Positions 1,652-34,000 of a stretch of DNA of 64,000 nucleotides are shown in pieces. The stretch covers positions 34,756,343 to 34,820,342 of the forward strand of contig NC_080671.1 in NCBI RefSeq assembly GCF_030247195.1, written 5' to 3'. Position numbers and translations under genes: made by a program. The notes beneath the pieces were generated by a model, which was given only the letters and a program-made list of their open reading frames with translations, ran no database searches and had not been told where the DNA came from. How positions within the stretch are numbered: position 1 is the first letter of the stretch; each line of letters begins with the position of its first letter. This stretch comes from Topomyia yanbarensis. Taxonomy: Eukaryota > Arthropoda > Insecta > Diptera > Culicidae.

Positions 1652-3919
1652 GTAGGAGGTGTCTCGGTGGTATACCCCCGGTCTCACGGTATACTTAATA
1701 TGTATAATAGAAAGAAATTGTAATTTTCGCCTCAATTAGGATGCGAATTATGGTTTCCGCGGGATGCTGCTAATGTTACCGATGATGAGGAAGAAGAAAA
1801 AAAATCACTTTCAACTCTTTCCAGGTATCCTATTCCCACTGTTCTCCTTTTCCTACATTATCGCACCGCACTCAACGTTCGGCCAGACGATGAGGAAACC
1901 TTTTATAAAGTTCATTTGCCACAGTGCATCGTATTTCACCTTTTTATGTGAGTATTTCTGGCTGGGATGTGAAGAGCACCATGCGTCTCCATCATGTACA
2001 AATTCCAATGGAGATAAGTCCGTTGTAATTTATCGCTCCGAAACCGTAGTTACATTTTTAACTAATTCGATAACTCTCCACGTTCAGTTCTGCTAATGTT
2101 GGCTTCGCAGCGTATCGAAACTGTGATTGGTGGAGTGTGGGGTGCCGAGCTGAGCCCCCACGATGAAGTGCCTACGAAAAGGGGAGCGAGTCCCACGCTG
2201 GTCGAGTGGCTCATTTTGTCCTGGGTTAGCGGTAAGTGAAGCAGGATTAGTATCTAGTAGGAGAAAGAAATCAACCCACAAAAAAAAATGAAAAAGAAGA
2301 ATAGATAACCACACAAAACCGAAACTCGGCCCAGTTTGTTGTGAAAGCGGAAATGTGCAACGGAAACGAAATTAAATCAGTGAAAATTTAATTAAAACTT
2401 TTTGCTCCATTCGGTTTTACCTGTTCAACTATCGAACATTGGTTTCTAACTAATTCGACTCTAACGTCGGTCGTTTTCTCTACTTTATACACTCCATCTG
2501 GTCACGTTTCACACGGTTGGCGCATCACGAACTGGATCGCACCGACGAATGCTTCTACAACTGGGGACGGATAGGACTGATTTGGAGCGAAGTGAAGCAG
2601 CTGTGGGATGTCGGCCTGCAGGAATACGTGAACGATATGTGGAATGTGATAGATTTCGTGACTAACTCGCTGTATGTGGCGACGGTGGCGCTGCGGGTGG
2701 TTTCCTACTTCGAGGTGAGTGCTGTTAGGTTGCAACATACGGTTTAGTGCTATCAAGATTGCATTTAGGTATCGGTGAGGAATAACAATTTGAAAATTCG
2801 GAAAGGATTTTATTTAAGCTTCGGAAGCAAAATCAGTGGAATTCGATGATCGCTAACCGGTCGAAATAATGTTGTTGGTCCCATGTCATAGTACTATAAA
2901 AGTTACAGTTGATAATGTGGCATCACCTTTTTATTTAACCAAAATTCTAACCAAAAACGAAGCTGTTTTTCTTGCTGCTAAAGATATAGATAGAAAATTT
3001 TAAAAGACTGTGGAAGGTCTTTGAAGTGCGAACTACGGTTCATCTTGAAGATAATTATAATTCAAATAGAGTAGTACTTTAGCTTTTCTGAGCACAATCC
3101 ACAGCATCTTGATATACAATTTGTTGAATTGACACCCACATGTCTATTTTCGTACATAATCTATCGTAATCCATCGTACTGATCAGTGCTCATCGCTACT
3201 GCATATTGATGAAGATGCTTATCATGTTGTTGAATCATCTATATCCGCTGAATTCGAAATTGTTTCTGAAGCCTTGTGATATCCAGCTGGCTAAAATCTC
3301 CCGAAGTATTTCAGCAACGTATTGATCTAATGGGTTTCTGCTCCCATGTCGTAAGAGGCAACAGAAAACAGGGGTTCTCATATCAAGGTGCTTCTCCGTG
3401 CCGAGGACGATACACGCAATACTTAGCAACCAACATATGTGCTCATCGTTATGACAAGTAGAGATAAGTTAACTGAGTGTCTGCGAATGTGGTGTGCTAT
3501 CACCACTTCTATGGAGGGCCACCGAGAGGGGGTGGGTCGGGGTGTTTCCTTCCGGGCGTGGAATTCTGAAGGGGGTCCGGATTTTCAGCAGAAACTAAAA
3601 TTTTGACAAGTACATTTTCGACAAAAAATTATTTGAGAATGCAATTTAAATAGCAATATCTTGGGGACCATTCATAAATTACGCAACACTAAAATTTCTC
3701 AATATTGACTACCCCCTCCCATCATGTAATAAATTGTCACAAATTATCCTCCATCCCCTATTACGTAACAAATCCCTCAAGAATTTTTTTTTCTTCAGTG
3801 AATATATGTTACGTAACGTTCTAGCTTACTCCCCCTCCCCCACATGTCACAACATGTAACACTTTTTCGAACCCCCTCCCCCCTAAAAGCATTACGTAAT
3901 TTATGATTAATGCCTTGTG

Positions 3920-4006
<87 letters not shown>

Positions 4007-7000
4007 CAGCAAAAATTCTAAAATACTGCATATTTGATATCAAATATATATTTGTACTCAATCAGAAGACCAGATCTGGGTTCGATTCCCAAGCCCGGAT
4101 ATAGGAATAGAGAATTTTTAAAAGAAAATTTTCTAACCGGAATGAAGTAGCAAATGACCCCATGGGTAAAATTTCTATGATCGAAACAAAAATAAGATCA
4201 GACTTGTTAGGGGTAAAAATATTACCAGTCATGAGGTTGTCTTCAAATTTCGCCAATATGAAATAGATTTTTTTTTTATTTATTGAACTTCCAGTCTTCG
4301 CAACTGCTGGATTATTATCGAAAGTAATTACTAGAAAGAAAAGGAAAACTTCTTCACCTTCTATTGAGGGTTGCACATCGGTTATGGAGACGAATTCCAG
4401 GTCTTCGTTCAGATAATTCGGAGTTCGCCCAAAAGTTTCCAGAGGATTATTTTGCAATTTTGCGTTACCCTTTTGTTCATCAAGAACTCTCAGCATTGTT
4501 TTAAAAATCGAACGTCACACAGTCATAATAAACATCATCCTCGAGTTCGATCTTTCTTCTGACCTCGCACGAAGCAGAAGCAAAAAAATCGCTACGCTAT
4601 AGCAGGCTATAAGCACCAGTGAATCAAGCCAGCTTTTGTTCTATATCAGTGCATAAACAAATTGTATCGTTGCCCCCGGCTGCGGAGTGAATCAGGATTC
4701 CTGTTACGGGATAACACGATTTCGATCGACTTTAATAAAACTCGTGTTAGACCGACAGTTCAGGAAGTGGAACAGTTAGTTAAGGTTAAAATGGAGCTTA
4801 AACTCGCTGAAGTTACGTACATTCAGCTACACCACGTAAAAACTGTGTTTTGATCACGTTTAGAAGCTTAGCACAGGCCGAAAACTTCATTGCAAAGAAC
4901 AACATGCAACACGAGGTCGAATTTAATAACACCAGAATCATATGCATATGGAATACGACATGGTGGACGTGCGTATCCATGATTTGGCCCCGCGCACTAG
5001 GGATGACTACATCAAACGAATCATGTCGCAATATGGAGAAATAGAATCTATTACGAATGACACCTGGAGAAATTTTTTCACTGGCATTCCCGGTGTTCGT
5101 ATTGTGAGGATGCGAGTGACTAAACCAATACCTTCTTATATGACTATCGAATGCAAATCACCGAAGGAAGGCGTGACCTATAAGCAAACAACGCTAATAA
5201 CATATCCCGGGCAGACACCAACATGCCAATTCTGTAACCATACAGACCACTACGGAAAAACATGCGTCGAAGCAACTAGTCAAAAGTCGTCTACTACAGC
5301 CAACTCGAACAAGCAGCCACCGACAGCTTCAGATAAACCAAAAACAACGACCCAATTAACCAATAATGCAGGTACAACGACCACGACAGCCGCTCCCAAA
5401 CCAACGACTAGCATCACCAATAAAGAATAAAATACCGATGAAGACGGATTTACAACAGCAACCCGTTAGAACCAGTGTTGCTGAACGCGTAAAAATAACT
5501 CTTGTATTTCTCATTCGCGTGTTCTCATTGCGCCCAACACTCGTATCCGAGTGTTCTCCATGCATGCTTTTCTTTCGTTCACTCCCCAGCCGGGTAGAAT
5601 TTCTGCGAGTGCCAGGCGGCCAAAAGCAACTCAAATTGCACATATTGAAACCCACTCTTTCGTTCGCACCCACCCACTGGCGCTCGCTCCTACTCAGGGT
5701 GGCTAACCCTACGGATTTTCCCGTAGATCTACGGATTTCTGTCCTTTCTACGGATCTACGGATTAACTCGTGAAATCTACGGAATTTTCAAAATTTCTTC
5801 AGAATTCTACGGAAGTTTAGTAAAAATAATACGTATTCGATTTCATGACATCAAATAGGCAATCATGCATGTTTTGAATTCAGAAGCTAATCGAATCGTA
5901 ATCGGTTGATGAATTTGAGTAGGAATACACAAGAATCCCGAATTATATTTCTACAAAATTTGACTGGTATTCAATCTAGAACATTTAAATTAAATTTCGT
6001 ATAGTTCGTTCATGGACGATGAGGGCTTTCTCTCATGAAGGCAAATGGGGAATACTATTGGTACCTTTGAGCCAATATTAACTCTGGGTTGAAAACGTGA
6101 ATAATTTCTTCGATGATAAACAAATTCATAAACTGTTATCGGACCCAGTAACTGAACTGTATTTTGTTTCTTACGATAGTGTGACAGATCACCGACAAAC
6201 TCAACAGATTATTCGCATCAAGAGAATCGGATTAGTATTATAGGTCAGAAGACTGAAGCTGAAACAAACATTGGGATATTTTGTGGAACCAGAAAATCTT
6301 GTTCAAATTTGTGCAGTTACTGAAACCAACTCTAAAAACATGTTCGAAGAAGTTGTTAGGATATCTGTAGGTATCTATCTATATTTATATCCGGAAATTC
6401 AATATTAAATTTTTTACACCAATACGAACCAATACAACTAGGTAAGGGCTCTCGATTTTAATAATTGCTCTTTAGAAGACTAACCCTATATTTTGGGAAT
6501 ACAACTTGTGAACTTATCATCTGTTTGTGGAATTTAAGGTAGTCCATGATTCAGTGCAATAAAATCAGATGTGGTCTCAGATAATGTTTGAGCTTGACTT
6601 CCCGACAAATTGAATAGTTTAGGTTAAAAACAAGCTACATCTTTGGCTATTAAAAATCCGACTCGTCTGTGACGCTTGCTGTACTGAAGCTGAGCAATGC
6701 ACTTTCTGATTTATTGTTGAAGACTGATTGAAAGTGCGATGCCAAGAACAGCTGTGCGAAAGGAACACAACTACCATTAAAAGATCCCGCATGCTTCTTG
6801 GTTTCTGGGTGACTTAGACACCATTGTAGTCGACCGTAGAGCAGTGGAAGAGGTTTTTTGCCTTTTAAAAGAGAGGCTACCAATATCGGTCTGAGTATAA
6901 ACTCTGGTAAAATAAAATAAATTGTAGTTGATAGAGAACCAGATCGCCAGCACGGTAGTTCCGAGATAGAAATGGAGGCAGCAATAGGTTGTCCACGAGT

Positions 7001-22000: not shown

Positions 22001-25000
22001 TGTCCCATCTCACTGATAGGTGGATTAAAGCGATTTTTTTTCATTAGGTCCAATTTGCACATGAGAGCCCCATTTTTTCGCATTACTGCAAAACTTTCTA
22101 AACATTTATCAGTATGTTTCGAAAGGCCAATGTTTGTACTAGCTTATTGCGCAAACAGTTGATGGAAAATCAGAAAGGTGACCGAGTAATGCGCGGAAGA
22201 GAAAGTAAACAAAGAGAGGCTCTCTTTTGTAGATTGGACCTATTGAAAAAAAAGTCTTCATATCTTTTCAATTTTCATTGCTATAAGTTTCATATATTCT
22301 ACGAAGTTATTTTAATTGTCAAAATACACCAATTTTATTAACCCATATTTTTTCGTATCTCGAGTATATTCGAAGATATTAGACATTTTTTGAAAAACAA
22401 TAGTTTTTTCAAATCATCTATTACTCTACTGGATACAACGAGAGACAAGTGAACTCTATTGAGTTGTATAGTGTTGGTGTAACATTTCTAATGGCAACTT
22501 GTGTTGGCTGCCCGTTTTTGCCCGTTCAAAAGTTATTACTTTTAAAACTTTTGCTAACTTTACCAAAAATTACCCAATAACTTCTAAGTCACAAGATATA
22601 AACCATTTGTCTCTTTTGAAAACATATGTAACTTGATTAGACGAACAACTTTCTGCAACATACTAAAGCCCTCTCTACGATATTTAAGAAGTTATGTTGA
22701 AAAAATCTTTTTAAGGAGTCATTCACAAACAACGGTCAATAACTTCAAGTATACTGGAAATAGAGATTTTTGATCTGCAATATAGATGTTCACAAAACCA
22801 TTTCTGTAGACTTCATCTTGTTTTTCACACATTGAAAAAATCGAAGCAAATATTTAGTTTAGTTCATGTCCAATCGGTGAGTTTTTCTCTATACGGTTAG
22901 TTATTTTCTTCAGTGGATATGTTTATTTAACACAGCATTTCTAGATGGTAATTTCTTTTTTTACATAGCAAAAATCAACTATATCACTATTATAATTATA
23001 CACTACATTGTACGTTTTACTTTCAATATACTCATTACATTTGACTGTATTGTATTATATGACTGTTAGATTATTATGTACTGCATTATGTTCTATTATA
23101 TGATATATTAACATAACAAAACAAATGAAATCGCATAGGGGATGGGAGCATCAGGGTATCATTCAAATTGAGGACTGGGCGAAGGAACGTGGATAGCCAG
23201 CCTGAGTCACTTGAAGGAAACTTCAGAAGGACCGATATAAGTTTGTCGCACCCTTCTACAAACAAACCATCAGGTTGATTCAAGCACGTATAGCGAAATT
23301 GTTTACCCTTTGGCTGGATATTATTGTTGGAAGAGGATCTTTTCATATCGCGGACTGCACGTAAGTATCTCTGCTTACGAGTTCACCCAAACCCTTTTGT
23401 CCCATCTTCAGTAACAACAGTAATGTGAAGGTTAAATGATATTCCGTTTAGTAGCTACAATAAGCCTACCTGCATACACTGGAAAAACCTTGAGCCGATG
23501 GTGGCTTCAAATCGCATCTGATAGAGAACTGACACTATAATAATTACCATATTTTTAAAGTTCACTTTTTTAGATTCTTGTATTTCGGTATAACGTAATA
23601 ATTTGGATTCATTACCAATTTGTTCTGCTGTTAACCGAATTTAAAACAGCACTGAAATTTTAGAAATAGTGTCTGATTAGGCAAGGATGAGAGCATGATA
23701 AGATAAATATAATTAAATTCTCATAGATACAGTTTAAAAACAAATTATATATAAGTTCCGTGTATGAGATTCGCGGTTTAACCAGGATATATTGAGTAGG
23801 AACATGGATTGGTGTTCCTCGGATTTGTAAAGAAATTACTTTTTGGGTTCTCACTTCACGATTTTCAGTGCACGGCCAAACAACATGCTCAATGTCGTGG
23901 TAACCCTCTCCGCAAAGCACTATGATTACCTACTGCTAGCCCAATACGGCGGAGATGCGCGTCTAAAGTGTAAAGGTTCCCCCACACTGACGCGATTATG
24001 TCGCAGCGACTGCGAAAATTTCGCTTAGCGATTTCGTCGCGCTTCCTGCGACAGTGCGATTCGCATGTGCGCCCACACCGGCGCGAATTTCGCATTACAA
24101 GCGACACAAAGTGACATTTGCAAACTATAGTAGCTAGACGGGACAACCTCAATTTTAATCTCATGGTAATACGACGTATGTTGTCCTAAAATTAAAAAAA
24201 AATATTTTTCGATTGTTTTATCAGCCATTCAGTGAGAATAGTGTATTTGTCCGCGTGTCTTTGTATTTAAAACATCTTTGCGTGAAGCAGGTCGTTTGCT
24301 CGACACAGTCTAGACACAGTAAGAAAACAAACAAGAAGAGAGGATAGTAAATCAGTTGACTATAAATATTGCATTATTCAACAATCTGTTTTCAACTATA
24401 GTATACCAAGAAGCGCAGTGCTAGTTCAGCAACACAGAAATATACCTCAGAAGAATCAACTTTCACCGCTGACCAGGTTCGTGTTCTTGTCTGCGAATGT
24501 GACATTCGAGGTCGTAAACTACTGTTTGATTCCAGTGCGGTCGAGAAAATTTCCGGCGAATCCAATGCAGCAACAACGTCCACTTGCAGTACCGCAATAC
24601 GAAGCCACCAAACGATCCAACAGCGTGGGAAATTTTATCATCGCAAAATTTTATATCAGCACAACAGCTATACCAAAAGCGATACCACGTCGATGGCCGA
24701 AATGATTTTTGGTTCTGCACCTATAGTCTTCCAGGACAGCAGTTTGAAGGTACATTGATTAAAAACTCGAAAAACCATTAAGTATGCTTACGTGTTTCAG
24801 TAGCCAACAGTAGCAGCAACAGCAGTAAAAAAGTATCCACTTCCACCTACTTGGGCTATGAACTGCCAAGTATCGGTCAGAATGCACTATACAACGGCCG
24901 ACATACGTCGGAAAGTGATCGTAGCTCCATAGGTACAACGTCACTACGGTCGTTTACTGTTACTTCGTCCACTTTGACGTAATATGATACTTCGTACAAC

Positions 25001-28000
25001 CACAGACAAAGGCCACCACTGCCAATCGAGTTTGCGCATTTGGAGCATCTGGCAGATCCGAGACTTTCAACCAAAAGTGGCCTTGACTCAGGGTATGGTG
25101 GAACGGAACCTTGGGCGTTTTCATCATGTCAACCACGCCATCGCACCGAAGCAGTCTAGCATCAATTTCTAGTGATTTCGAAGACTTAGTTTAGATACCA
25201 GTATTGATATTCCACAGCCTCTGAATTGCACAAGTTTAGACAACTAAAGTCAGTATGGCAGCTTTCATCGAGGTCAATACGAACATTAGCAGTCAAGTGA
25301 CAGCGAGCGATGGTTGCGCCGGTGGTAAAAATCGACGGAATAGTGAAACCATAGTACTGACTAGACAAAAAGCGTTTAGCGGGGAAGTTCTTTCCACTGC
25401 AACCAATTATCGCGGGAGACCTTTGCACAAAAAGGCACGTCTAGGAATTGTGCTGTGCGTTCAACTAAACGATGACATGCTGCAGGAAATTGAAGCATTC
25501 AGCTCGGAACACATGAGTATATTTGAATCAATGCTGTGTCGTTTAAGAATGGCGGCGGAAAACGCAAGCTACAGGTAGCCGCAGTTACTCCAGGTAGGCT
25601 TGATAGAAACCCTTCACTTACCTGTTTAAACAGTTGTGTTAATTTATTACTACAGATAATGCTGGCTGCCGGCATAACGCAGCAGTGCCCAGTGGATTTT
25701 TTTACTGTACCCAAACTGGTAAATTCCATGTGGCTAACGCTAAGCAGTGGTGCGTGCACTCTTGGAACTCAAAGCAGTACATGTTCTAATCGGGCTGCGC
25801 TTAAAATTGATAATAATTTTATGAACGATCTTTGTTACCTGCTATTGCTGGCCGACATTAAGGATACACATTTTTTCATCAGCGCACTACTAACGGCGAT
25901 ATTAAAGTACTACCTGGGCTGGGTGAGTACCATTGCCCCTGTGAGTGGTTCTGCTTACGAAGCAGATACAGATTGTGCTACAATACAGCGATAGAAGGAG
26001 AAGCGGTGCAAACTAACTACCAATCACCCGTACATCGTACTGTGGGTCCAATGTAGCTATTTGTATGGAACCGTCGGACACCCGGTGAAACTGTCGAGAA
26101 AAATCTGCAGAAGCCCCCAATTGAGCAATACCATGGATAAAATTCTAAATGAGCTATCTTACTTCGTAAGATGTAGCGAGATCAAGCGGGTTGTCCTCGT
26201 AGAGGCTTTCGACGAGTATAAAGCTGAGCAGGCATTCGCTGCGCAAAAGATTATAAATAATTATTCGCTCCTTATGTTAATTGTTAACTTTAACCAAAAA
26301 TGCTTTTCCTTGACCTGATGTACAGTGTAAACTAACAGATTTTCGTACGTAATAAAACTGCAAAATTACGAAAAATACAAATTATAGCAACAGTGTCATA
26401 AGGTTTGGTGGAAATAACTGTGGAGAAAATAGAGGATTACACAAATCCCCCAGATTCTTGCGATCCGGATCTGCGATGGTTCGTTCGGCAACCACGACCA
26501 AAGACTAAACTTCGATGGCTGGTAATGAATAAGTCTTGCTGAGAGCGAACTGGTCGGAGTTATGTCAGACCGGGCTAAGTGACAATATATTGATTTCTAG
26601 AAAAGCAAGTTTAAAGTTTAAATTGCAGCATACTTTATATTGTATATACTATTGAAGAAAGGATAACAGTTGACTGAACAGTTCCAGATTGCCATTCGTA
26701 TTAGTTTCCAGACTAGTGTCCGACTGAAAGTTGGGAAGGGCGTATGCAAGTTGGTTACTTATATGGCTGAAACTAGAATATAGTTATTGCGTTTTTTGCT
26801 ATAGCATACCATCCGAGAATACACAATTGATAGCTTCATAAACTAACCGGTTCCATGTAATTTTACGGTGCGTTTTCCAGATTGCAATCTTCTTAACAAT
26901 CTTTTTGCCTTTCTCAATAGAAAGGTATTGCAATTGCTCTGAAAACCGACTTTTTAACGGAGGCCCGGAGGGCCGAGTGACATATACCATTCGATTCAGT
27001 TCGTCGAGTTCGGCAAATGTCTGTGTGTGTGTATGTATGTGTGTGTGTATGTATGTGTGTGTGTATGTGCGTCTGTGTGTGTGTACGCGAACACAATCTC
27101 ACTCACTTTTCTCAGAGATGGATGAACCGATTTTTACAAACTTAGTCCCAAATGAAAGGTGCAACGTTCCCATAGGCTGCTATTGAATTTCTAATGGATC
27201 CGACTTCCGGTTCCGGAATTACAGGGTGATGAGTACGATCACGCAGAAAACGTCGATTTTAAGAAATTCTGCAATGAATGTATAATGGTGAAAAATTTTC
27301 CAAAATGTGACCACAACTGCTTCGATTTGCAGTACTAGGTCATTAACAGCCATTCAAAGTCTCTTTGGTCACATTGGCCACCATCATCGGTTCCGGAAGC
27401 CCCGGCGGAAGTATCCAAATTCAGACTAACAGTCACATCGGTTTCTCGGAGGTGGCTAGACCGAATCAACCAAACTTAGTCTCAAATGAAAGATGTTGCG
27501 TCCCCGTAAATGGCTATTAAATTTTATCCCCAACCGACTTCCGGTTCCGGAGTTACGGGTTGTGGCGTGCGATCACATAGCAAATTGTGATTCAAACCGA
27601 TACCCCGATGGAAGCAAAAAAGGTAAAAATTTCGCTAAAATGTCTCTCAAATAACTTAACTTTGCAGTTCTAGGTCACCGACGGCCAAACAAACTTTGTT
27701 GACTACATTGACCACCATAGAAGGTTCCGGAAGTGCCCGGGAAAAGCGGCCATCTTTCAAAATTTACGAACTCACATCAGTTTCCCGGAAATTGTTGGGC
27801 CGATTTTCACAAACTTAGTCCCAAATGATAGCTATAATATCCCCATAGATGTCAATAAAATTTCGCACGGATCGCTTATATGGGTCCGGAAATATAGACT
27901 GAACGGTCCGGTCACACATGAAATTCCCATATAAGCCTGAACTCATATTTTTTTTCAAAGGGGGGACCCCATGAAATTTCAGAAATCGAATTCGTATTTT

Positions 28001-31000
28001 TGATGCCAAACATCTTGAAAAAATTTTTTTTATAAAAATCGACTTTTTGGGACTTTGCTACTTTTTTCAATTCAATATTACCGTGGCTGTTTTCTCTTTT
28101 GCAAAATTTTAGAACTCGAATAATGATTTCTTTTCTTGTATATAGTTGTCAAATCATGTATAATAAAATTGTAATGTATACATTTGAAAGCTTTTAATAA
28201 ATATAAGCAACTAAAAACTCTCGTGTTCATGATTGAGAAAGGCACAATTGCACCGCTAGGTGGATTAAAGAAGGTTTTTTCAATAGTTTTTTACAAATCT
28301 CGTACATTCAGTGCATTTTTGTACAAGTAAATTCCATCGTGAATACAACCGGTGGGAGCTTCATGAGATCGATTGAATAGCGGTCTTCAGTAGGCTGATT
28401 TGTTCACATCTAGCTGCGTCAGGAACACCCGGTTCTCTTTTTGAATATTTCCCTAGACGTTGTCCTGATTGACAAAGTAGTAAATTCTACTTAAAGGACA
28501 GTACGTATCGGAGCTGGAGTATTTTTTACCGCTGGTTGGATCTACAAAGTAGAAATCGTTGTTCTCTCGTATAATGACAAAAGTACTATCGCCTGTTAGG
28601 AGACTTTGTCCTCAGATAAGATACACATCGTACTCCAAAAAGATGTAAAACAAGGTAATAAAACACCTTAATGCTTCGGCGAAGCTTGGCTTCATAAATA
28701 TTGTCTATCTTTGGAACCGATTAAAAATTACTCGGTTAGTGGACCGAATTCCGCCAATTTGTGAACATGCGTCCATGTTGTAGTGAATAGGAATTGGCGA
28801 AACATATCGCCTATATATCATTAGCTCCACGTTTTCATCGATCACAAAGGGAACGTTGATCGGACCAAGCAGCCTTGTAACGCAGACCCTTTCGCCACTG
28901 ATCAACATTGCTAGCGGTAGCATCCCCTCCTGGGAAACTCGCTGCGGTACTCCTCTCCTCACAGATAAATACGCACCAGTCTGCTGCAACACCACACACT
29001 CCAGCCCGTTGGTGCCGAACTTGGGAGTCTCCACATTCGGTACCAGGATTATAAACAAGGAGATGTAAGTTAACTCTCGCATATACTGCCCATAACAGCA
29101 TAAGAGTCCCATGTTGAAAAACAGCAAGCCGAGAAAAACGCTGTTCAAGATTTCCCATCCATTGAGCCAAATGGATGGGACAACCATGTTTTGGTATTTT
29201 TTTTGATATTTTCTAAACAAACCCGGTAATCTTATTTGTGCAGTGTGATTCAGTGGTGATACAGAATACAATCCAACGGATAACTCATTTTCGACAAAAA
29301 TCCACATGGGACTCTTTTGCGTTTATGGGCAGTATACGGCAGATTAGATCCGGTTAGCAAAGAGGCGAAGACTACATATTAAGAAGACTGATATCTTTTT
29401 CCTTCCCCCATACAAACGAGAAGCGACATAGGTTACAGCACCTCTATTGTCTGCAGGTAGGAAGCTTAATGTAAAAGTGTATATGTGTGTGTGCATCACT
29501 ATGGGAAGTACCCGCAAGTGGCGTTGCTGTTACTGTCTCCAGATTCTGGACAGAGTTAGCAGTCTTATTGATATGCAGTCTTCGATAGAGGTGTATTCAG
29601 GTGATTTGTCGTTGCTGCTCGTATATCCGACCAGAAGCAGTGGGGTTTTGATTTCGAATGTTCTCTCAATCTAGGCGGACAGATACATGTACATATACAC
29701 GTGAGAAATTGAGCAGCTATCAGTAGGTCTGTTCCAGGAGAAACTGGAAGTACTCCGGAGAAAATCGTTCCTTTACTCTCTTCTTCTGGTAGCAAACCGG
29801 AGTAAAAAGGAGCAAGAATTTTTTGCTCCTGTTTACTCCGGAGTGATTTCCTTGTACTGGAACAAAGCTAGTGTGAGTATATTTTGATTTGATGTGCACT
29901 TGCTCTATTGGGTTATACCGTTAACCAACATACAGAACTTGCTCGACGAGAGGTTGCTATTTATTCGTCCAGCTGAAGAAACATGATTATCATCTGATCG
30001 CATGGGAATTCCGATCGAGTCCGTACCCAAGATTTCATCGATAATCTTTATGTTGTGGGGAACTTCAATCTCCCGCTCGATTTGCGGTATGAACTTTATA
30101 TTCTTATATTTCAGATTGTTATGGAATCTTTGGCATAACATGTTCAACCGTTCATTGGCGTTAATTTCTTCCCTCAAACAAAATGCTAAAACATCTTCGT
30201 TGAACAAGAAATGATCGTCCTTTTCCGGGAGGCCTTTCTCATCATCCGTAGTATTACCGACGTTTCGTTTTTCCAATGCTTTCACTAATTCTTCTACGTC
30301 GGAATCGTTGGGTTCGTCGAACTATTTTTCGATCAGCTCTTTGGAAAGATGAGTCCGCTTTGGAATATTTTTTATTCTCGAAGGACTTGAAGCACTGGAT
30401 TATAGTAAATAGCTCCAACCACCCTACTTTCAATTCAATTTTACCGCTCCAGTATTTATTCGATTTACCTGGCTTTCATACGGTATGTAATCTTCGTTTT
30501 CAAATAGTTTTGTTGGACTTGGTAATGGTATAGAAGCGTCCATCAGTTTGGTTTTGAAATTTAGGCGATTTTTTTCGTATAACTATTTTCATTTTTTCGG
30601 AATTCTGGTCAACTTATGTAAAGTTGAGATGCGCCAAATGACAATAGTTAATTAGTCTGCGCCATCTTGAATATCTGGCGAACACCCAGCGACTGTGACA
30701 CAATGCTCGCACGCAGCGATTGTTCAAAAATCGCTGCAATTTCGCAACAGCCGACGCGAAAAGTTCGCGTCAGTATGGGAGCGCACATCTGTCGCCATGA
30801 GCAGAGTTGCTAGCGACAAATCGCTTCGCGAAATTTTCGCAGTCGCTGCGACAAAATCGCGTCAGTGTGGGGGAACCTTAATGGTTGAAGAAGTCCCTAA
30901 ACATCACTCGGAGAAAGTCCCAATTTACTCCCAACCCTTTGAACCATACCTTCGTTGATACTTTAGAGATAATTAAGTGCAGCCCACGTCCCCCATTGTC

Positions 31001-34000
31001 CAAAGATGTTTACCACATACGGTTAGCTTTGATTGAATTTCACTAATATTTTGCTCCGAAGGAACAACAAATTGAAAAAAATATATGTATAAAATCCTCC
31101 CGAAACTCGTAGAAGCAATAATTTGTGCATTGCCTCTTCCCCAGGTCCAAAAAGAGATGGCCATCAACCGGTTCGCGGCGGATCTTCCCCGCGAGAAGTG
31201 GGACACCTGGGATCCGATGCTGATTTCCGAGGGTCTGTTCAGCGCTGCAAACATCTTCAGCTCGCTCAAGCTGGTGTACATCTTCTCGGTCAATCCGCAC
31301 CTGGGACCGCTGCAGGTGTCTCTTTCGCGGATGGTGATGGATATTATGAAATTTTTCTTCCTATACGTGCTGGTTCTGTTCGCGTTCAGTAGTGGTTTGA
31401 ATCAACTGCTTTGGTAGGTTCCGGTGTCGGAAGTTGATATCTGTCAAGAATAATGATTTTTTTTTGTAGGTATTATGCCGATCTGGAGAAAAAGAGGTGT
31501 CCGGATGTAACAACGTTTTCCGGATCGTCTAACCTAACATCGACGGATCCTAATGCCTGTGTCGTGTGGAGACGATTCGCGAAGTAAGTTACTAAATCAA
31601 TGTTCATCGTAATTCACCTCAAAAAATATTCCTTCAACAGTCTGTTCGAAACGATTCAAACACTTTTCTGGGCAGTCTTCGGGTTAGTGGATTTGGAAAA
31701 CTTTGAGCTGGACGGCATCAAGATCTTCACTCGATTCTGGGGAATGCTGATGTTCGGAACTTATTCGGTGATCAACATTGTGGTGCTACTAAATCTGCTG
31801 ATCGCTATGATGAATCATTCATATCAGCTCATATCGGTAGACAAATTTGTACTGGTTGTAGCGGTTGACCGGGTTCCTAATAGTTTAGCAAACATTTTCA
31901 GGAACGTGCTGATGTGGAATGGAAATTTGCTCGATCGAAACTTTGGATTAGCTACTTCGAGGAAGGCGGAACTTGTCCCCCACCGTTTAACATTATTCCG
32001 ACGCCGAAGTCAATCTTCTACGTCTTCCAGTGGATCAAGCGGAAATTCTGCGGCCATTCGAAGGCCGTTAAGAAGGAACATATGAAAACAATTCGAGTGA
32101 GTAACGATCCAATTCATCCAATGAGTTACCCCTGGAACGCGGAAGGCGGTCTCTCATGTTTGTCCATTGCACCGTGTGTTGTTAATGTGTGATATCACCT
32201 GCGCTTTTCCCCACTCTAAATCTCACTATCACCTACCGTTGAAACTTCTCCGTCTTTTTGTCTGTCACTGATTTCAATTTCGCTCCATGTGGAAACCCCT
32301 TTCCTCTTCTGCTGTTTGCTCTGCTTTTCTTTTCTTTTTGTTTCGTTTTAGCGGAAGGTGAAACAAGCGAGTGAAAGAGATTTCCGATATCAGAGCATTA
32401 TGCGCAATCTAGTCCGACGGTATGTGACCGTTGAACAGCGCAAGGCCGAATCCCAGGGTGTCACCGAAGACGATGTGAATGAAATCAAACAAGACATCTC
32501 CGCCTTTCGCTGTGAACTTGTGGAAATTCTGAAGAACAGTGGAATGAATACGACAAGTGCCACCGGTTCGGGAGGAGGCGTCGGTGGGAAAAAGAATCGT
32601 CAGAAGGAACGCCGATTGATGAAGGGCTTTAACATTGCCCCACCGCCGGCACCAGAATCGGGTCAGCATCTAACACCGGTTTCCGAGTTCATATCACAAC
32701 TTCCGGACCAATCGTCACACGAACTGTTTGCCGGAGTGTTCGGGCCAGGTCTCACTACCAAGAAAGCCCTGCACCAAGTCAATCCCATGCACCAGTTTTC
32801 ATCGCAGTCGCAAAGTTCCTTCGGTGAAAACAACAATCCCATTCACAGACTTGCCAAACTAGCACCGAAGTTCCATTCCAAAAGACCTGGCTCGCAGAAA
32901 AAACGATGGGGTAGTAAGATCCCGTTGACCCATCCGAGTGTGTTCACTAACGGCTTCAAAACCGATTCCGATGTCTTTCTAGGAACTCTAATCGAAGCGG
33001 CCAAACACGGGAGTGTGTCCCGCTTCATCGGTCGTTCCCGTTCGGAGGACTCTGTCTGTAACCATGGCCCTCGGGGTGAATCTGGGAGCCACAGTAACAG
33101 TCCTGCATCAGACGAAGCCATCACCGAGTCACCCTCGGATTCGAATCCGAGCTTAGACCGGCCGGATGTGGAGCCATCGCCTGATCCACACAAGCATCAA
33201 CATCATCATCCTCATCATCACGTTCATCATCATCAGCAGCAGCAACATCATGGGGAAGACGATCGACCGAACGGTTCGGGGAAAACGAAAGACACCTCCT
33301 CACATCATTACCATTTGCACTTTGGGGCACTGGCAGCACTCAAGCGGAAGAGGAAAAAATTCTCCAACAGTCGAAACAGTAGTCCGGTGTTGGATCCGCC
33401 CAGCGAAGTGCCCATCGTGAATAGCCCTCGGGTTAACGCCAAAAGTAAGGTGAGTTAAATGATATTTCATCATTGCTTTGATAATTTTAAACATTCTGAT
33501 GTTTAGATTCTTTGAAACTTGCTAGGGTCACTACGAATTTCATTTTTTGGCAGATTTTTCATAAACATTTTATTATCTTGAAACCTTTTTCAGCCATTTT
33601 CTCGATAAAGCATATATTGCACCTAAAAACGATTGATTGTTTTTTTTTTTAATAAACTTTCAATAAAGAAATGAATATATAGTACAAAAGCCTGGACCAA
33701 ATTAAAAGGGAGGAATTTCCTTTGTTTTTTATCATTTAGAAACAAAACAGAATAAAACGCATTCGAACTTGATCAAGTAGCCTTGCAGCAGCGTTGCTTA
33801 TTAATCGCGGTAAGCAAAGTGAGGCTACACCTCTGTTCACAAGATCGCACTTAACCGTTGTGTCCGACAGCGTACTCTTTTGCAGATTTTAATTCATAAA
33901 ATTTCAGTACACTTTCCCAAACTGGAAATTGCAACTTAGTGACATCTTAGAAGAATATCAAGCATAGCTTTTGGGGGAATAAAACTAATGATACAGTGAT

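Follow-up and report, generated by a model that had tools for sequence, protein, structure and literature searches.

Within a 64,000-nt stretch of contig NC_080671.1 of the mosquito Topomyia yanbarensis (the window, whose numbering is used below unless a chromosome-sized contig, C1, C2 or C3, is named) lies an element of 6,905 bp, at positions 23974-30878, in which decayed copies of the host genes FNIP and CC2D2A are enclosed by terminal inverted repeats (TIRs). We consider it very probable that this is a non-autonomous Pack-type transposon of the PIF/Harbinger superfamily, carrying cargo from two host loci and moved in trans. Such gene-carrying elements are well known in plants and hardly reported in insects, and a literature search found no report of this family.

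The element and its copies across the genome

A sequence-only reading of the window had described a 6.9-kb element with TIRs of about 60 bp and TAA duplications, and the description holds. The outermost 60 bp of the two ends are identical at 57/60 positions (three differences), the arms are 95% complementary over 62 nt, gapped similarity between the left and right ends extends to ~120 bp, and a TAA stands on both sides (Table 1). Inside, with their reading frames broken, lie FNIP on the plus strand and CC2D2A on the minus strand, and the earlier naming of both as decayed copies was borne out by Pfam and by DNA matches to the host genes. NCBIfam gave nothing useful, PDB sequence searches with the cargo frames gave nothing relevant, and no tRNA was found in the window by ARAGORN.

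The assembly comprises 1.168 Gb in 1,044 contigs, with the three chromosome-sized ones spanning 218-470 Mb. A search of it with the 101-bp left end returned 98 candidates; 40 were scored, and 40/40 of these matched at 96-100% identity. Twenty copies were fetched; the left TIR and the FNIP cargo were present in 20/20 and the CC2D2A cargo in 19/20, the exception (L012) having none within the 10 kb examined. We also searched for an exact pattern of 19 bases, consisting of the target-site duplication (TSD, with TWA required) and the 16 terminal bases, which occurred at 88 ends genome-wide (44 and 44), as against 0 for the reversed control. These ends form 37 inward-facing pairs of 5.3-16.7 kb. A match to CEPT76_peptidase, the CC2D2A domain, lies inside 33/37 pairs, and one further pair, L018 (C2:117686249), holds the cargo by DNA match, bringing the total to 34/37; conversely, of the 40 CEPT76 matches with stops, 37 have a scored left-TIR match no more than 16 kb away. 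Other copies with these TIRs, for which the sequence-only reading had proposed a search, are therefore present in number, and the counts are lower bounds because copies with mutated ends escape the exact pattern. Miniature inverted-repeat transposable elements (MITEs) were rejected as the class of this family, since the paired copies measure 5.3-16.7 kb and hold coding remnants.

Large insect genomes hold many duplications, and one copy (L009) sits on a small contig, C143, so that segmental duplication or an assembly artefact, with dispersed duplicates of the host loci bordered by repeats by chance, has to be considered. However, the right TIR lay within the fetched stretch in 17/20 copies, and all 17 of these complete copies are bounded by TIRs with equal 3-bp TWA duplications (15 TAA, 2 TTA), while their 20-base flanks differ by eye. 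Equal TWA duplications were likewise found in 35/37 pairs, although the pattern itself required TWA, and the pairs are spread over the three chromosome-sized contigs. These observations largely refute duplication of this kind, to which we assign next to no probability.

The parent genes are distant from the window copy: host FNIP lies at C3:260.16 Mb and host CC2D2A at C2:116.82 Mb. Both have open exons, and the stretches read at these places contain no TIR (the best 24-mer match has 8-10 mismatches), from which we conclude that the cargo was mobilised. The alternative that it sits at its ancestral site, which the sequence-only reading had named as a refutation, was rejected. Given the TIRs and duplication, parents without flanking TIRs in the stretches read, and no transposase found, the element is by its structure a Pack-type TIR element.

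Transposase and superfamily

Pfam found no transposase domain in the window-element frames or in the scanned frames of copies L010, L013 and L028, in each case part of all frames, in agreement with the sequence-only reading. A genome search with PF13359 gave 522 candidates, of which 150 were scored, yielding 151 matches with 150 listed; none of the 150 listed places is within 20 kb of the 44 TIR or cargo places first known. Three TIR pairs without CEPT76 cargo each enclose one listed PF13359 match (Table 1). By our own arithmetic, 150 random places would give ~0.004 matches in these 28 kb. In the C1 pair, a read of 1.2 kb shows the transposase as an open frame of 328 aa, in which the DDE_Tnp_4 domain is matched over its full length (E 5.9e-29). 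These three pairs are candidates for the autonomous partner sharing the TIR that the earlier reading had called for; in autonomous PIF/Harbinger elements a second ORF, for a Myb/SANT-like DNA-binding protein, would be expected besides the transposase.

We assign the element to PIF/Harbinger because a TWA duplication, which is the target duplication of that superfamily (PMC4482050), is combined with transposases inside pairs sharing the 16 terminal bases. An AT-specific insertion of the ISL2EU/ATon type was rejected, since the TSD is TWA (PMC4482050, PMC3422177). PIF/Harbinger-type transposases are numerous genome-wide, as the 522 candidates indicate; most of the listed matches are stop-free and several form groups of equal score. 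Such equal-score, stop-free groups suggest recently active PIF/Harbinger families.

The FNIP cargo and its likely RNA origin

On the plus strand, Pfam matched the cargo to FNIP_N (E 3.8e-10) and to FNIP_M three times (E 1.5e-9, 1.2e-19 and 6.3e-14). Host FNIP was located through the sole FNIP_C match of a profile search of the genome (C3:260161556-260162110), and from exon 2 on it has 1,241 open codons after splicing of three GT-AG introns. The cargo is collinear with this gene at 77-91% identity, its homology beginning at the exon-2 acceptor and ending mid-way through the coding sequence (CDS) on the 3' side; about 26259-26379, it carries an insertion of ~0.12 kb. The stretch before exon 2 was assigned as a putative remnant of the 5' untranslated region (UTR) and exon 1 with the help of what we take to be the FNIP N-terminus.

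The three introns differ in their fate. With the unspliced parent as query, 0-3 of the 64 positions of intron I-a align in 21/21 copies, and the 14-base word across its junction is exact in 18/21. For intron I-c, 0/139 positions align in 20 copies, the 21st (L012) being without the region. Intron I-b, in contrast, aligns at 62/64 positions in 18/20 copies; in the other two, L009 and L028, 42/64 positions align, ahead of a deletion. Because I-a and I-c are missing in register and I-b is kept, we read the FNIP segment as a copy of a partly spliced transcript, and partly spliced RNA is its most likely source. The sequence-only reading had proposed that the element mobilised host genes; this is supported by the parents lying elsewhere, but the FNIP part looks RNA-derived and not like a plain genomic capture.

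If FNIP had been a plain genomic capture, either the host would have gained I-a and I-c later or the source would have been an intron-poor FNIP copy that has since been lost. The retained I-b, the clearly genomic nature of the CC2D2A cargo (see below) and the 3' end, which stops mid-CDS with no poly(A) noticed, would all fit, but the absence of two introns in register and the break of homology at the exon-2 acceptor would not. Two intron gains within ~10% divergence would also be unusual, and we regard plain capture as improbable.

It is on balance probable that a partly spliced FNIP retrocopy made by a long interspersed nuclear element (LINE) was inserted into a genomic copy of the locus holding CC2D2A and its neighbour, or into an element already bearing that cargo, and that the TIR element then carried both. 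This is supported by RNA-like FNIP adjoining DNA-derived cargo and by the larger state seen in copy L044 (below), in which the two are set apart. It is weakened by the fact that no poly(A) tail or retroposition duplication was noticed by eye at FNIP, where the original 3' end of the copy is not known. Moreover, FNIP is kept near its 5' end and cut at its 3' end, the reverse of typical LINE truncation, which a later deletion could explain. A more tentative and rather unlikely route is that a partly spliced FNIP transcript, once reverse-transcribed, became part of the cut-and-paste element itself, beside the genomic capture from the second locus, possibly as a break-repair patch. If true, DNA transposons would take up gene sequence by DNA copying and RNA-templated insertion alike, and surveys dropping intronless cargo would miss the RNA-templated acquisitions.

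The CC2D2A and cyclophilin cargo

The CEPT76_peptidase match (E 1.3e-12) was obtained on the minus-strand translation with X at stops, and this peptidase-like domain (CEP76/CC2D2A type) lies at the 3' end of the larger CC2D2A segment. Host CC2D2A was read over a 3.3-kb 3' part (L032, C2:116822698-116826030), to which the cargo is 81-91% identical in DNA. The putative remnant upstream of the matched part (30015..30475) gave no significant Pfam match and is beyond the host stretch read.

Directly behind host CC2D2A, on the opposite strand, stands a cyclophilin gene, and older copies carry this neighbour in addition. For example, alignment of L028 with the host locus places cyclophilin at element positions 3511-4072 (86%) and CC2D2A, in three stretches of 86-91%, at 4073-6199. 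Two of the cyclophilin pieces score above the Pfam cut-off for Pro_isomerase, and the third misses it by 0.1 bit. An RRM-like frame was seen by eye beside the cyclophilin in L044, L045 and L046, a combination that suggests what we take to be PPIE/cyp33; we refer to the gene as PPIE-like. On these matches, the family cargo is three host genes from two loci, so that the two captured genes of the sequence-only reading stand and the PPIE-like gene is added to them.

Because introns are kept, the CC2D2A/PPIE cargo is read as a copy of genomic DNA. A CC2D2A intron of ~50 nt (borders by eye) persists in L028 and L044, interrupted by small gaps, and is partly deleted in L013, and the PPIE copy of L028 contains two intron-like stretches. 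L044 is probably a larger, older state of the cargo: in it FNIP runs to parent position 6882 and is followed by an unassigned ~0.55 kb and then by PPIE, CC2D2A and the right TIR, with the left end outside the stretch seen. L028 looks like a ~0.9-kb deletion from an L044-type state, with a 5-bp overlap. The first 3.1 kb of L044 (C1:97459900-97469899), in element orientation, are taken up by short units in a long tandem array, which abuts the truncated FNIP cargo and sits where the left part of the older lineage would be.

A second multi-copy set derives from the same host locus. Six further CEPT76 matches are stop-free, and the two that were read, L045 (C3:376039700-376042300) and L046 (C1:120534900-120537500), are 94% alike over 2,042 bp and both lack parent positions L032 1781-2683. 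Neither FNIP nor the present TIRs were found in their 2.6 kb, and splice-site borders were also not found. The CC2D2A+PPIE host locus thus seems to have been amplified twice.

Decay and age

FNIP stops at codons 107, 421, 540 and 672 are common to 5/5 copies tested (the window copy, L011, L013, L019 and L028), and the cargo shows frameshifting gaps. Between the window FNIP and its parent, differences at codon positions 1, 2 and 3 amount to 8.0, 9.4 and 12.2%, which is close to flat. Because of the shared stops and the near-flat differences, the cargo is judged to have been dead before the tested copies diverged, and the idea that the element's FNIP still functions was rejected. The same observations, together with stops in 40/48 CEPT76 matches genome-wide, make it very improbable that the element carries working genes, its cargo still translated and under selection, despite the longer open CC2D2A frame of the family member L044. 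The family shows that host-gene cargo, even when dead, can keep being copied.

The 16 copies of the main group differ by 0.45-0.95% from their own consensus, L023 (C1) and L027 (C3), which lie on different chromosomes, are identical over 5,280 bp, and L009 and L028 diverge by 6-7% from the main group. If neutral change is assumed to run at 1-1.5% per million years, these values suggest that the cargo was acquired several million years ago and that copies have moved until very recently; activity could even be current.

Proposed origin and mobilisation

An ancestral element would have taken up a contiguous genomic segment, namely the 3' part of CC2D2A with its neighbour PPIE, and also the FNIP segment, for which partly spliced RNA is the most likely source. 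By the time the present copies diverged, this cargo was already pseudogenic. PIF/Harbinger transposase from longer elements that share the terminal repeat would act in trans on the TIRs, and the element would move by cut-and-paste into TWA sites.

Several observations weigh against this account. The transposase-bearing elements are placed by coordinates, 1.2 kb of one having been read, and their ends were compared over the 19-base pattern alone (16 terminal bases and TSD); the C1 pair has unequal duplications, and the C2 transposase match contains one stop. Fourteen TIR ends stay unpaired, and no short empty copies (MITEs) are among the 37 pairs. Cargo in the 34 pairs was judged by CC2D2A, with FNIP checked in the fetched copies. 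Finally, no convincing match to FNIP exon 1 was found in the 13.8 kb upstream of parental exon 2, where matches were short or of low identity, the longest being 158 nt at 66% (L028).

Comparison with known systems

Tan et al. 2021 (PMC8277862) surveyed the reference genomes of 100 animals and found 370 Pack-TIRs, four of them multicopy and none in insects or birds. Like these, the present element is a non-autonomous TIR element with host-gene fragments whose parents lie elsewhere, and like the multicopy ones it repeats one chimeric structure with differing TSDs (PMC8277862). The frog case of the survey is a 5' UTR piece of 291 bp present on three chromosomes (PMC8277862); the present family has at least 34 paired copies, 5.3-16.7 kb long, a two-locus cargo and relatives that bear a transposase. 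Intronless copies of parents with several exons were dropped from the survey (PMC8277862), so RNA-derived cargo would fall outside it; by its criterion of DNA-level capture the CC2D2A/PPIE part, with its retained intron, would qualify, and the FNIP part apparently would not. The present family suggests that there is RNA-derived cargo and that current survey methods screen it out.

Ssk-FB4, found in Drosophila melanogaster populations, is likewise a multicopy host-gene carrier in an insect. It differs in its 9-10 bp TSDs and ~700-bp TIRs, being placed by its authors with Mutator-like elements (MULEs), and in carrying one nearly whole gene with coding potential at three loci, its transposase being given as unknown in that account (PMC8277862). 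Plant Pack-TYPE elements share the same definition, and rice and maize were also searched with PIF/Harbinger TIRs (PMC8903248); unlike in those described there, the host here is an animal and one cargo is apparently RNA-derived. The TWA duplication and the DDE_Tnp_4 transposase inside three pairs with these ends are as in PIF/Harbinger elements, in contrast to which, as they are outlined in PMC4482050, the window copy has no transposase found in its scanned frames. Turmoil-1 of C. elegans is also an animal element with two incorporated protein-coding sequences, but these lie inside the inverted terminal repeats (PMC2572040). In a fungal hAT element a host gene, histone H3, was likewise amplified by a DNA transposon and inactivated, there in hundreds of copies; the host, the single gene and inactivation by repeat-induced point mutation (RIP) set that case apart (PMC6710886).

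In the surveyed animal genomes, TIR gene capture proved rare, with nearly every case present as a single copy (PMC8277862), whereas here an insect family occupies dozens of sites. With candidate transposase partners and two identical copies, it offers a system for directly testing capture, loss and mobilisation.

Features of the window element and neighbouring minor observations

Table 1. Features of the window element, and TIR pairs elsewhere that enclose a transposase match
Feature	Coordinates	Strand	Basis or remark
Left target-site duplication TAA	23971..23973	.	sequence
Left TIR, 60 bp	23974..24033	+	inverted-repeat comparison; genome matches to left end
Putative FNIP 5' UTR/exon 1 remnant, approximate start	24220..24451	+	inferred from frame
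Parental FNIP exon 2 copy	24452..24659	+	81% to parent 3979-4204; begins at parental splice acceptor
Parental FNIP exon 3 copy	24660..25593	+	fused to exon 2 at 24659/24660; 64-nt intron I-a missing
Retained FNIP intron I-b, 62 nt (parent: 64)	25594..25655	+	alignment to parent
Parental FNIP exon 4 and partial exon 5 copy	25656..26552	+	fused at 25873/25874; 139-nt intron I-c missing
CC2D2A 3' segment	26662..26906	-	L032 2174-1933, 81%
Nested insertion, ~1.37 kb	26907..28274	.	in window copy only among 18 aligned copies
CC2D2A segment, broken by insertions and deletions	28275..30014	-	L032 1936-1090, 1092-1060, 1066-921, 165-63; 84-91%
Upstream CC2D2A coding remnant, putative	30015..30475	-	open frame 29905-30321 runs on from matched part
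Right TIR, 60 bp	30819..30878	-	inverted-repeat comparison
Right target-site duplication TAA	30879..30881	.	sequence
Transposase-bearing TIR pair	C1:135359521-135369761		unequal duplications TTA/TAA; PF13359 match inside
Transposase-bearing TIR pair	C2:146479927-146489139		one stop in transposase match; PF13359 match inside
Transposase-bearing TIR pair	C3:265282078-265290861		PF13359 match inside

The nested insertion is absent from the other 17 aligned copies and is read as having entered later than the formation of the element. It has a 16-nt inverted repeat (94%) near its borders and three internal 92-nt repeats that are 71-72% identical to the reference copy. At 29075-29343, within a stretch inserted into the CC2D2A cargo, two arms of 43 nt, 84% complementary, stand 183 nt apart; among the fetched copies only L013 has this stretch ungapped. 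To the right of the element, less than 0.3 kb away, frames 31076-31417 and 31588-32085 match TRP-gamma, with coding sequence over 31076-32085.

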